Source: an uncultured Cohaesibacter sp. | Lineage (GTDB): Bacteria; Pseudomonadota; Alphaproteobacteria; Rhizobiales; Cohaesibacteraceae | NCBI RefSeq assembly: GCF_963677725.1 | Contig: NZ_OY782507.1 | Location: forward strand, 992,001-1,056,000 | Reading direction: 5' to 3' | Length of the DNA: 64,000 nt | Part shown: positions 14,261 to 17,907 of the stretch, piece after piece | Layout: the number at the start of each line of letters is the position of its first letter | Numbering within the stretch: the stretch's first letter is position 1 | Notes under the pieces: model-generated | Database searches by the model: none | What the model was told of the DNA's origin: nothing | What the model saw: the letters and a program-made list of their open reading frames with translations, nothing else | Made by a program: the position numbers and the translations under genes

Positions 14261-14370
14261 AAGAACCATTTACATACCAAAATTGATATAAGTCAAAAAA
14301 ATCATTAAAATTATATCCGTATTTCTATTTATATTCGGAAGAATAATTGAAATTGGTTCTTATTGGTTCT
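14261..14370. promoter_or_regulatory. Possible operator cluster: three copies of ATTGGTTCT
   Basis: The AT-rich gap before the kinase-like gene holds ATTGGTTCT twice in tandem (14352-14360 and 14362-14370, a 10-base period, one helical turn) and an inverted near copy AAGAACCAT at 14261-14269. Sites one turn apart suit binding by a dimeric regulator such as the GntR protein of this operon. That link is inferred. Confidence 0.35.
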
Positions 14371-14462
14371 CTACTGATACCAGCCTGAGTCTGTGTCCAG
14401 CAGGCTCTTGCCTTTGGTTGGCCTTGGATGTCCAAGGCCCGATTCCTGAGAGAGATCCGGCA

Positions 14463-15359
14463 ATGACAGACACTTTCAATTACTTTTTGGGGATCAATGG
14501 CGGCGGCACTGGCAGCAGGGGCCGCCTTCGCGCCAAGGATGGGACTTTGCTTGCGGAAGCAACCGGCGGCCCGGCCAACACGCGGCTTGGTATCGTGCAG
14601 TCGCAGATTCAGGTCGACAGGATTGCAAGGGAAACCATCAAGGCAGCTGGCCTACCGGAAAGTGCATTGGAGCAAACCAGCGCGGGGGTTGGACTGGCGG
14701 GACTTCACATTCGGGCGGATCGGGAAGCCTTCCGTGCGTGGGATCATCCCTTCGGTGCGATCAAGATATCAAGCGACGCGCATGTGGCCTGTCTTGGCGC
14801 TCATCAAGGAGCACGCGACGGAGGCATCATGATCATTGGCACAGGCAGCTGTGGGTATGGTCTGGTGTCGGGTCAATCGGTCAATGTCGGCGGTTGGGGC
14901 TTTACCCTTTCGGACCTTGCCAGCGCGGCACAGGTTGGACTCAGTGCCTTGCGTTATTCTGTGGCGGCCCTTGACGGGATTTATGAGGTCAGCCCGATGA
15001 CCGATCAGATCATGTTCCGTTTCAGCGACAGTCAGGAAGAAATGGTGCTTTGGACGTCCAATGCGACACCAGCCCATTACGGGGAATATGCCAAGCTCGT
15101 GGTTGAATATGCCGAACGCAATGACCCGGTGGCGGTCAAACTGATGACCAAATGCGGTTCGGATGCCAGCGCGATCCTGCGGGCATTGGCCTGGCGGGGC
15201 ATCAACGATATCGCCTTGAAGGGCAGTTTTGCCGACAAGGTCGAACCATGGCTTGAGGCGGATGTCTATGCTCTTCTGGTGCCGGGCAAGCATGACCCGC
15301 AGGATGGTGCCATTCTGCTGGCGGGGGGCAGAGTTCCGAATAACAAGCAGGGGCAATAG
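14463..15359 (+). CDS. BadF/GlcNAc-kinase-like protein with degenerate ATP site
   Basis: By family and position this should be an N-acetylglucosamine-type sugar kinase of the BadF/BcrA ASKHA fold (298 residues). The fold is well kept: GINGGGTGSRGRL at the start, SSDAHVACLGAH, IMIIGTGSCGYGL, GGWGFTLSD. The conserved Asp of the first phosphate loop (usually GIDGGGT) is Asn12. The usual SDEGSG is SDLASA (residues 150-155). The adenosine-side GG is GS (254-255). These changes suggest weak or absent kinase activity. It is first in a tight operon with gntR two bases after its stop. The start ATG is preceded by GAGAGA. Confidence 0.8.
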   Translation: MTDTFNYFLGINGGGTGSRGRLRAKDGTLLAEATGGPANTRLGIVQSQIQVDRIARETIKAAGLPESALEQTSAGVGLAGLHIRADREAFRAWDHPFGAIKISSDAHVACLGAHQGARDGGIMIIGTGSCGYGLVSGQSVNVGGWGFTLSDLASAAQVGLSALRYSVAALDGIYEVSPMTDQIMFRFSDSQEEMVLWTSNATPAHYGEYAKLVVEYAERNDPVAVKLMTKCGSDASAILRALAWRGINDIALKGSFADKVEPWLEADVYALLVPGKHDPQDGAILLAGGRVPNNKQGQ

Positions 15360-15361
15360 GC

Positions 15362-16183
15362 ATGGGTGATTTAGCACAATTGATCGACCATGTTCGCTCT
15401 CGCGCTGATCTGCAAGGCTACAGTGCTACGCCGCTTTATTTGCGGGTGCAAAAGGGGATCGAGGATGCCATTCAGATCGGACTTGTCGATGTGAATGACG
15501 CCCTGCCAGCCGAGCGGGAATTTGCCAGCGCCCTTGGCGTGTCACGGGCAACCGTGCGCAATGCTGTGCGCGCATTGGTGGACAAGGGCGTGCTGGTGCA
15601 GCGCCATGGAGCGGGCACCTTTGTTGCCGCCCGCATCGAGGCGCCACTCAATCGCTTGATAAGCTTCACCGAAGACATGCAGCAGCGCGGCGTTGAGACG
15701 GATACAGTCTGGCTTGACCGGTCCGTTGGCGTGCCGACTCCCGCCGAATGCGAGGCGCTTGAACTGATGCCAGACACTCCTGTCGCTCGTCTCTATCGCC
15801 TGCGCAAGGCCGATGGCGTGCCGATGTGTCTGGAGCATGCAGTGCTTCCTGCAAGCATCCTGCCGGACCCGACACTGGTGTCTCAATCCCTTTATGCATG
15901 GCTGGAAGCCAGTGATCGGCGACCAACACGCGCGGTGCAAGTGCTTTCGGCCCGCATGCTTGACGTCTCGCACGCCCATTTGCTGGAGGTCGCGACAGGG
16001 TCTCCATGTCTCTATCTGGAGAAACGCTCTTTCTTGCCGTCGGATCGGTGCAATGGAAAGCTGACCCAGTTGTCTGAAGAGACAACCATGCCAGTGGGCA
16101 AGGCCCCGGACAGGCCGATCGAATTTGTTCGCTCCTACTATCGCGCAGACCAGTTTGAGCATGTCACCGAGTTAAAAAGCTGA
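15362..16183 (+). CDS. GntR family regulator with UTRA sensor domain (NagR-like)
   Basis: Transcription factor of 273 residues. The N-terminal winged helix has the usual GntR pattern (LPAEREFASALGVSRATVRN, then LVQRHGAGTFVAARIE at about 41-90). The UTRA ligand domain follows; in related NagR/PhnF proteins it binds sugar phosphates such as GlcNAc-6-P. The final UTRA strand motif, RPIEFVRSYYRADQFE, is present. It is preceded by about 24 extra residues (226-249) that typical relatives lack. It starts two bases after the kinase-like gene and precedes the NagA-like gene, so it probably controls its own operon. Confidence 0.9.
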   Translation: MGDLAQLIDHVRSRADLQGYSATPLYLRVQKGIEDAIQIGLVDVNDALPAEREFASALGVSRATVRNAVRALVDKGVLVQRHGAGTFVAARIEAPLNRLISFTEDMQQRGVETDTVWLDRSVGVPTPAECEALELMPDTPVARLYRLRKADGVPMCLEHAVLPASILPDPTLVSQSLYAWLEASDRRPTRAVQVLSARMLDVSHAHLLEVATGSPCLYLEKRSFLPSDRCNGKLTQLSEETTMPVGKAPDRPIEFVRSYYRADQFEHVTELKS

Positions 16184-16287
16184 CATCTCCGCAGGCGCTA
16201 TTGGCCCGTCTCGGCAAAGGGGTTATTCTGGCTAACAGATTGTGACTCGTGCAACTGTCTGCACGCTGCCGGGACGGGTATGACCAG

Positions 16288-17448
16288 ATGAAACAGCTTC
16301 TCCAGCATGCCCGCCTGTTTGATGGCAGTCAGTTCCATGCAGGCAAGGCTGTGACGCTCGACGGTGGGCAGATTGTCGAGATCATCGAACGCAGTGTCTC
16401 CCCCGGTGGCTATGAATTGTTTGATCTGACCGGACTGGTTCTGGCACCGGGCTTCATCGACATCCAAGTGTTTGGCGGCGGCGGGCATATGGTCGGCGCG
16501 GACATGGGGCTGCCGGAGCTGGAGGCAATTGCCGACACGCACAGGCAGTATGGCACCACCAGTTTGCTGCCCACCCTGATGAGCGATGATTGGGATGCTC
16601 TTACCCATGTCTCATCCTGCATTCTCAAGGCCCATAACTATTGGGGTGAGAATAGCGCGCTCGCGGCCATCAAAGGGATGCATTTTGACGGCCCCTGCCT
16701 ATCGCCCTCTGTCAGCAGCCCCCACAGGGCAAGCCAGTTAAGACGGCTGGATGACGATCTGATCGATCTGATGTCCCACCCTGATCTCGGAATCCGTCTG
16801 GTCACGCTGGCTCCGGAACGGGCCGGGCTAGATAGCGTGAGCAAGCTGACCGAAGCGGGCGCTCTGGTGTGTGCTGGCTCCAGTGCTGCGACGCATCAGG
16901 AAGCGTCTCAGGCCATTCGAGCGGGTCTTCGCGGGGTGACCAAATTGTTTGCTTCCATGCCCCCCATCACCGCCACCTCACCCGGCCTTGCTGGTGCCGC
17001 ACTTGATGACAGGGATTTGTGGTGCAGCCTGCTCGCGGATGGGTTCCATGTTCACCCCGCGGCCATGCGGATGGCAATCAAGGCCAAGCCCAAGGGTAAG
17101 GTCTTTCTGTCCAGTGGAGCCATGGCGACGATCGGGTGGGACAAGGACCAGTTCGATTTTCAGGGGCAACGGATTCGATTGCAAAATGGCGTTTGCGCCT
17201 ATCCCGACGGATCATTGGCAGGCGGTCATTTGACAATGATCGGCGCGGTACGCAATGCGGTTGAGCTGCTCGACCAGCCGCTATCAGAGGCGCTCAGAAT
17301 GGCCTCGCTCTACCCGGCCCAATTCATCCGCATGGACATGACCCATGGCACGATTGCTCCGGGCTTCGCTGCTGACCTGATCGCCTTTGACCCACAAAAC
17401 TGGGTGGTCAAGCATAGCTGGATCAACGGCTATCATCGCGCTCACTAG
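16288..17448 (+). CDS. NagA-like amidohydrolase lacking catalytic and metal-ligand residues (probable pseudoenzyme)
   Basis: Homologue of N-acetylglucosamine-6-phosphate deacetylase, 386 residues, full length. The start at 16288 has GGGACGGG upstream. The frame and family scaffold are intact: APGFIDIQVFGGGG, GTTSLLPTL, LRGVTKLFASMPPIT, GAMATIG, EALRMASLYPAQFI. The positions that matter in NagA are changed. The metal-binding Glu of HLEGP is Asp134, the His of AGHTNAT is Ser198, the His of THLFNAM is Lys219 with Asn to Ala222, the substrate His of DGHHV is Phe253, and the catalytic Asp of VTDAM is Gly277. E. coli NagA equivalents are Glu131, His195, His216, His251 and Asp273. Deacetylase activity is very unlikely. 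It could be a regulator or scaffold. Confidence 0.85.
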   Translation: MKQLLQHARLFDGSQFHAGKAVTLDGGQIVEIIERSVSPGGYELFDLTGLVLAPGFIDIQVFGGGGHMVGADMGLPELEAIADTHRQYGTTSLLPTLMSDDWDALTHVSSCILKAHNYWGENSALAAIKGMHFDGPCLSPSVSSPHRASQLRRLDDDLIDLMSHPDLGIRLVTLAPERAGLDSVSKLTEAGALVCAGSSAATHQEASQAIRAGLRGVTKLFASMPPITATSPGLAGAALDDRDLWCSLLADGFHVHPAAMRMAIKAKPKGKVFLSSGAMATIGWDKDQFDFQGQRIRLQNGVCAYPDGSLAGGHLTMIGAVRNAVELLDQPLSEALRMASLYPAQFIRMDMTHGTIAPGFAADLIAFDPQNWVVKHSWINGYHRAH

Positions 17449-17855
17449 AGCGCGTTTTCTGCATCATCAAAGAATGTCATTGCTGAGAATCTGATTCAAC
17501 AACTTGAAGCGTTGAAGGCACAGGTTGGCGTTGGACCTTGAGAGTTTGATTCAAGTTGAAGCACTTGAAGTGCCTGCCGATTGCTTGTTCAAGCACTTTA
17601 ACAGCGGGCGGATTGATGAGTCTTTTCAGTTGTTTGAGACTCGCTCTTGAGAGATGGATTCGGGCCACTTGAAGGGCTTGAGAGCTTGATTCAATTGGCG
17701 AATCTCACTTTCTGAATCAGAATCAACAAACAGCCAGAAGGAAGACTTTTCCCTTCGGGCCAAGGTGAATAGCGGCAAGCTGGCGCCATTAAGACCAGAG
17801 CTGCGCGGGGCCATGAACTCACATCATGGGCCTGAACATAATGGGACTTGAAACG
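17449..17855. repeat. Non-coding TTGA-rich repeat region
   Basis: No gene is supported. The octamer CTTGAGAG occurs at 17537, 17646 and 17677, each followed within a few bases by GATTC. CTTGAAG and GATTCAA variants are scattered between 17490 and 17700. A near-perfect palindrome GCACTTGAAGTGC lies near 17561-17573. The cluster could be degenerated repeats or a binding array. It sits between the nag-like operon and the pntB terminator. Confidence 0.4.
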
Positions 17856-17888
17856 AAAAATGCCGGGCAGTTGCCCGGCATCTTTTTT
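17856..17888. terminator. Bidirectional terminator after pntB
   Basis: A perfect 10-bp stem ATGCCGGGCA / TGCCCGGCAT (17860-17881) has A5 on one side and T6 on the other, so it can end transcription from both strands. It lies 20 bases past the pntB stop. Confidence 0.8.
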
Positions 17889-17907
17889 GTCACTTGGGTC
17901 AATCGGA

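Follow-up and report, generated by a model that had tools for sequence, protein, structure and literature searches.

A NagA-like protein with lost catalytic residues and a frame under purifying selection in Cohaesibacter

The window analysed here (64,000 nucleotides; positions 992001-1056000 of the single-contig, 4,625,566-base genome of an uncultured Cohaesibacter, termed G000) carries a small operon in which genes for a kinase-like protein and a GntR regulator stand with a gene related to NagA, the N-acetylglucosamine-6-phosphate (GlcNAc-6-phosphate) deacetylase. The NagA-like protein has lost most of the residues of its active site, the losses are shared with a sister species (G008; other G numbers denote further Cohaesibacter genomes), and the gene is nevertheless under purifying selection. 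The three genes, placed in their families by Pfam and NCBIfam matches, are as follows.

14463..15359, + strand: BadF-type N-acetylglucosamine-kinase-like protein, 298 amino acids (PF01869 and NCBIfam match)
15362..16183, + strand: NagQ-like GntR/UTRA regulator of the HutC subfamily, 273 amino acids (PF07702, 112 bits; PF00392, 55 bits)
16288..17448, + strand: NagA-like protein, putative pseudo-deacetylase, 386 amino acids (TIGR00221, 250.5 bits; cut-off 225.65)

The three reading frames run uninterrupted over normal lengths, and the kinase and GntR genes are tightly spaced; the tight operon described in the original prediction for this DNA stands to that extent, but a gap of 104 bases separates GntR from NagA. 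Both overall sequence and fold place the NagA-like protein in the NagA family, with a TIGR00221 score over the cut-off and a confident structure model (mean predicted local distance difference test score [pLDDT], 93.7) that matches Vibrio cholerae NagA 3iv8 at a template modelling (TM) score of 0.95. Its score against PRK11170 (276.9 bits) is under the cut-off of 483.

Loss of the NagA active site

Active-site positions were numbered after Escherichia coli NagA, and the protein was compared with the solved E. coli and Klebsiella NagA sequences and with its congeners. An eleven-residue signature was followed (Q59, N61, E131, H143, H195, H216, N219, A220, R227, H251, and D273), which reads QNEHHHNARHD in its intact form, QFDHSKASTHG in G000, and HFDHSKAHTHG in G008, the NagA-like proteins of these two species being 84% identical. 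The replacements in the window were located by alignment, with the structure model as further support at H216.

16471..16473, + strand: N61 replaced by Phe (residue 62)
16687..16689, + strand: metal ligand E131 replaced by Asp (residue 134)
16879..16881, + strand: metal ligand H195 replaced by Ser (residue 198)
16942..16944, + strand: metal ligand H216 replaced by Lys (residue 219)
16951..16956, + strand: phosphate-site N219-A220 replaced by Ala-Ser (residues 222-223; Ala-His in G008)
16975..16977, + strand: phosphate-site R227 replaced by Thr (residue 230)
17116..17118, + strand: catalytic D273 replaced by Gly (residue 277)

In both species, the metal ligands E131, H195, and H216 are D, S, and K, the catalytic D273 is Gly, and the phosphate-site residues N219 and R227 are Ala and Thr, with H143 and H251 kept (His146 and His254). 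In the structure model, Lys219 lies directly after a short strand (216-217), taken as barrel strand 6. The absence of metal ligands and catalytic Asp, proposed earlier for this protein, was confirmed against solved NagA sequences and congeners, and N61, N219, A220, and R227 are lost as well. Sequencing or assembly error was rejected as a source of these changes because the same changes occur in G008.

The comparison took in 43 distinct NagA genes, 12 from outside the genus and 31 from within it (18 primary orthologs, 2 b-type, and 11 second-type copies, the last a part of the second-type copies listed in the genus), and 40 of them had the full signature. The remaining three were G016 (1 change), G000 (8), and G008 (9, of which seven are identical to changes in G000). 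The nagA of G016 (L065:8598-9755) has Gln at the otherwise strictly conserved H143 (H143Q) and an intact remaining signature. Among the best 80 of at least 577 relatives, E131, H143, H195, H216, N219, A220, R227, H251, and D273 were each kept in 80/80 and N61 was intact apart from two alignment gaps, in a scan that is biased by its two patterns, which span the E131 and N61 motifs (E/D and N/F allowed). A wider family of dead NagAs was not found with patterns derived from G000 and G008, which matched 116 stretches in the named genome collection, none of them a relative, though the window's own genome may lie outside the collection searched.

The changes in the NagA-like protein are concentrated on the active site, as had been predicted. 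The 16 other orthologs of the genus have 171 invariant columns, of which 33 were changed in at least one of the species G000 and G008, and 27 in both species; when seven other lineages were left out in turn, 2 to 11 of 173 to 182 invariant columns were changed. The available part of one study gives E131, H143, H195, H216, N219, H251, and D273 as the region of NagA with the highest conservation (PMC12409433). With H143 outside the invariant set (G016 differs there), five of the six literature-named residues in the set were changed, compared with 28/165 other columns (Fisher p = 0.001); adding N61, A220, and R227, all three chosen after seeing the alignment, gave 8/9 compared with 25/162 (p = 7e-6). 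For mycobacterial NagA, single mutants are described as having lost activity under standard conditions (PMC6016474, available part).

Selection on the NagA-like gene and its present distribution

The NagA-like gene of G008 contains no stop and no frameshift, and the ratio of nonsynonymous to synonymous substitution rates (dN/dS) between G000 and G008 was 0.067 (interval 0.045-0.099), next to 0.059 (0.040-0.088) for the intact second NagA of the same genomes and 0.066, 0.057, and 0.061 for intact NagA in three other congener pairs. Other genes of G000 and G008 gave 0.033 (NagB-II-like), 0.117 (murQ), 0.043 (guaD), and 0.036 (glk), and the operon partners gave 0.047 (kinase) and 0.076 (GntR). 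In a neutral, substitution-only simulation from the G008 gene, 103, 13, and 0 of 1000 copies were open at branch lengths of 0.1, 0.3, and 0.67, respectively. Because the losses are common to both species, the constraint measured postdates them by parsimony. The dead NagA gene is under purifying selection and is not decaying, in agreement with the earlier view that random decay does not describe it, and it qualifies as a pseudoenzyme gene in the sense that catalytic residues are lost and the frame is under purifying selection.

The history of the gene comprises a burst of change, then renewed constraint. On the flanking-gene topology, the stem of G000 and G008 measures 0.766 in NagA compared with 0.120 in the flanking genes (ratio, 6.40), while the next highest NagA/flanking ratio among the 20 branches with a flanking length above 0.015 was 2.69 and the tips after the split gave 2.44 and 1.97. 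The long stem was found again in an outgroup-rooted NagA tree (0.606). For the kinase, the stem ratio was 2.81, near that of its other branches, and the GntR stem was also long (0.699), in a tree that lacks G015 and has other branches of up to 0.52. The internal branch of G000, G008, and G015 is short in NagA (0.032 compared with 0.110 in the flanking genes) and is not recovered in the NagA gene tree, so that length may be misapportioned between branches. Horizontal replacement by a foreign NagA was rejected, because the gene order guaD - kinase - gntR - nagA - pntB is kept in 14/18 genomes of the genus (in G015 without gntR) and identity is higher to the primary orthologs of other congeners (56-60%) than to the non-Cohaesibacter loci listed (≤44%).

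Preferential conservation of the active site has been lost in the dead pair. For residues up to three away from a signature position, identity between G000 and G008 is 50/62 (81%), as against 273/324 (84%) in the rest of the protein; the intact pairs, which overlap in species and are not independent, were better conserved near the active site in 10/10 cases, significantly so in 8/10. Residues 314-386 hold 3/73 differences in the dead pair compared with 5 to 16 in six intact pairs, and constraint is lost at residues 221-240, which hold 4 differences where the intact pairs have 0 in four of six and 2 and 4 in the others. Residues on the dimer side of NagA include I224, D237, H251, and R258, according to the available part of the same conservation study (PMC12409433). 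By eye, the dimer-side residues map to I227, D240, H254, R261, and K265. Both species have the residue given in the study at the first four of these positions; at the fifth, R262 is Lys here.

A second, intact NagA was sought elsewhere in the genome and was found beside a gene best matching N-acetylglucosamine kinase. This second nag locus, at 3.83 Mb in G000, holds genes for MurQ, an ATP-binding cassette (ABC) transporter (solute-binding, permease, and ATPase domains), GntR, a NagB-II-like protein, NagA, a ROK-type kinase, and a CutC-like protein; MurQ and NagA pass the NCBIfam cut-offs, and the names NagB-II, N-acetylglucosamine kinase, and CutC are best matches under theirs. Its NagA has the intact signature in both G000 and G008.

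Kinase, regulator, and surrounding sequence

Three further features belong to the operon.

14351..14374, + strand: tandem direct repeat AATTGGTTCTTATTGGTTCTCTAC, probable operator for the GntR encoded in the operon (conserved upstream motif)
14496..14498, + strand: kinase residue 12, phosphate-1 Asp replaced by Asn (D12N; alignment with congeners)
17437..17454, + strand: terminator-like stem and T run, putative operon end (such sites are no more numerous in the region than in shuffles)

The kinase scores 89.2 bits against PF01869 (cut-off 31.5), and its best NCBIfam match, NagK_SO3507, reaches 213.7 bits, under the equivalog cut-off of 370. The original prediction had it lacking its phosphate-loop Asp, which is so in G000 but not in G008, where Asp is kept as in 14 other congener kinases (12 syntenic, 2 b-type). 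The motifs SDA, GTGS, and GGWGF are intact by eye in G000, and 17/108 columns invariant in the genus were changed in either species. As a change of one codon in one genome, for which a single base change makes Asn from Asp, D12N may be a sequencing or assembly error, and the G008 kinase, which keeps its motifs, looks competent. The idea that both enzymes of the operon had lost catalytic residues is strong for NagA and weak for the kinase, where it comes down to one substitution private to G000.

The regulator has the GntR helix-turn-helix and UTRA domains of a NagQ-type regulator (Pfam). An ATTGGY-N4-ATTGGY motif, counted by eye, lies upstream of the kinase in 13/14 syntenic loci and in both b-type loci (G009 and G011), the only exception among the syntenic loci being G015, in which gntR is likewise missing from the stretch separating the kinase gene from nagA. 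In exact form, the doubled ATTGGT motif has a single copy in the 4.6 Mb genome of G000; G008 has two copies, of which one stands at this operon. NagQ is described in the available part of its source as binding direct repeats of TGGTATT (PMC4494728); the putative operator here is likewise a tandem TGGT-type repeat, with a unit, ATTGGT, shorter than the full TGGTATT. A search for a GntR regulon beyond the own operon gave nothing convincing, two further sites having three mismatches. The operon appears, from these motifs and domains, to keep its own NagQ-like control.

Between nagA and pntB (window 17449-17907), G008 has genes for a LysR regulator and an NmrA-like NAD(P)-binding protein, and the other syntenic congeners have open reading frames (ORFs) matching this pair, some called on the opposite strand. 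The window is without both genes; a short run of CTTGAGAG..TTGATTCAA repeats, imperfect in sequence, takes their place. In G015 (L062:9054-12274), where gntR is gone, two minus-strand ORFs stand in its place, one with Colicin M and Hint-type matches under the Pfam cut-offs and the other with matches to DNA-alkylation-repair/HEAT-like proteins; they are perhaps a toxin-immunity pair.

Readings of the NagA-like protein and comparison with known systems

We put at about 0.6 the probability that the NagA-like gene encodes a pseudo-deacetylase that selection maintains and that works by way of its fold or surface. The burst, the renewed constraint, and an active site without privileged conservation suggest that selection moved to another part of the protein, and because selection on the dead gene is about as strong as on the intact versions, the protein probably has a new, non-deacetylase job. 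We infer that it does not deacetylate GlcNAc-6-phosphate and does non-catalytic work via its surface as the partner of another protein, for which the co-produced kinase and the NagQ-like repressor are the likeliest candidates. Under this scenario, the vertically inherited nagA of a NagQ-type nag operon would have been freed from deacetylase duty in the common ancestor of G000 and G008, probably by the second nag locus with its intact NagA in the same genomes. The metal, catalytic, and phosphate residues would then have gone in a burst of change with its centre at the active site. Strong purifying selection would have come back afterwards, guarding the fold together with the dimer side and C-terminal part of the protein instead of the old active site.

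Several points weigh against this reading. The dead form occurs in two species only, and the rate and pattern tests both rest on that pair, whose synonymous distance (dS) of ~1.35 makes the dN/dS values rough; several wider pairs, among them G000 or G008 with G012 or G015, were without dS convergence. When the stem is pooled with the adjoining internal branch, its ratio drops from 6.4 to 3.5 for NagA (kinase, 1.5). Two intact pairs, G006-G016 and G015-G016, are also without significant extra conservation near the active site. Residues 61-80, beside N61, hold 1 difference in the dead pair compared with 5-9 in six intact pairs, a signal from one of 20 windows of 20 residues and a lead only, and this conserved loop could be a new ligand site. 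Further, the mycobacterial NagA mutants are described as still binding substrate, with <5% activity for H139A, H249A, and R225A when pushed (PMC6016474, available part), so some sugar binding by the NagA-like protein is possible. The 61-80 stretch corresponds to window 16468-16527 and has Phe62 and His67 in both species.

New catalysis by a metal-free enzyme, with Lys219 after strand 6 or a Ser198-Lys219 pair as the reactive group, would agree with the sharing of D134, H146, S198, K219, and H254 by both species, with K219 following the short strand 216-217 in the model, and with the newly conserved residues 61-80. In many class I aldolases, the lysine that forms the Schiff base is on strand 6. 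A working active site would be expected to be the best-conserved part of the protein, however, and positions 60, 143, 144, 223, 231, 247, 275, and 313, which adjoin active-site residues in sequence and were assigned to the pocket by eye, are not the same in G000 and G008 though invariant in the 16 other orthologs; with preferential conservation of the region lost, new Lys219 chemistry becomes less likely, and we regard this explanation as improbable. Similarly doubtful is a broader version, in which the NagA barrel was rebuilt into a metal-free active site or binding mouth (Asp134-Ser198-Lys219 and loop 61-80) and forms an undescribed amino-sugar module with the co-produced kinase and the NagQ-like repressor. 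A deacetylase that still works through a rebuilt metal site (Asp134, His146, and His254) would explain why E131 became Asp, a possible ligand, why H143 and H251 were kept, and why the protein scores over the NCBIfam NagA cut-off, but both histidine ligands and the catalytic Asp have become Ser, Lys, and Gly, and a lysine at a metal-ligand position would be expected to disfavour metal, which leaves only a very slight chance for it.

The original prediction had cast the NagA-like and kinase-like proteins as sensors without catalysis, perhaps signalling the presence of amino-sugar ligands to the GntR protein. Co-location, the conserved predicted operator, and constraint on all three genes are consistent with such an arrangement, as are the mycobacterial NagA mutants that can still bind GlcNAc-6-phosphate (PMC6016474, available part). 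On the other side, a sensor of GlcNAc-6-phosphate is not supported because the phosphate-site residues N219 and R227 are gone. Also against the model, the active-site region is not specially conserved, the G008 kinase keeps its Asp, and GntR carries a UTRA effector domain of its own; for the proposed report to GntR, only the shared operon and shared constraint connect the two proteins. Sensing of amino sugars is therefore not borne out, and we consider it unlikely. A useless gene in slow decay, merely unbroken so far, would account for the stem burst and the private kinase D12N of G000, which resemble relaxation. It is already disfavoured by open frames and a dN/dS of 0.067 over a synonymous distance of 1.35 after the shared losses, and by the neutral simulation (0/1000 copies open at 0.67), and has a slim chance of being correct.

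If the NagA-like protein is a maintained pseudo-deacetylase, the locus offers a clean natural experiment in which an enzyme became a pseudoenzyme within one genus: 16 other genomes keep an ortholog whose metal ligands and catalytic Asp are in place (H143Q in one of them), two species have the dead form, and an intact second copy in the same two species acts as a built-in control. The role of the newly constrained part would test how non-catalytic roles arise from bacterial metabolic enzymes. The case is also a warning for annotation, in that the TIGR00221 NagA model labels the dead protein a deacetylase, over its curated cut-off.

The NagQ-type nag regulons of Proteobacteria comprise nagA, nagB, a transporter, and sometimes nagK, as given in the available part of their description (PMC5343134). 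The operon resembles them in its HutC-subfamily GntR, its upstream tandem ATTGGT repeat, and its BadF-type kinase best matching NagK_SO3507, and differs in being without NagB and a transporter, in having the doubled operator once in the genome, and in the lost NagA active site. Searches of open PubMed Central papers turned up no report of a dead NagA. As far as the available parts of the papers go, NagS, a GlcNAc-6-phosphate dehydratase, is no parallel because it is a SIS-domain protein (PMC12680351), and a paper on a bottromycin modulator was a false lead (PMC7113386). Compared with NagA itself (E. coli 1YRR/2P50, Klebsiella 9UP6, and Vibrio 3IV8), the protein is alike in fold (TM up to 0.95), whole-chain identity (31-36% in the best matches), length, dimer-side residues, and operon partners (a kinase and a GntR regulator), but unlike in that His195, His216, Glu131, the catalytic Asp, and the phosphate-site Asn/Arg are replaced and the active-site region is not preferentially conserved. 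Bacterial pseudokinases have reportedly been reviewed as pseudoenzymes. With pseudoenzymes kept after the loss of catalysis, the NagA-like protein shares a conserved fold, lost catalytic residues, and purifying selection.

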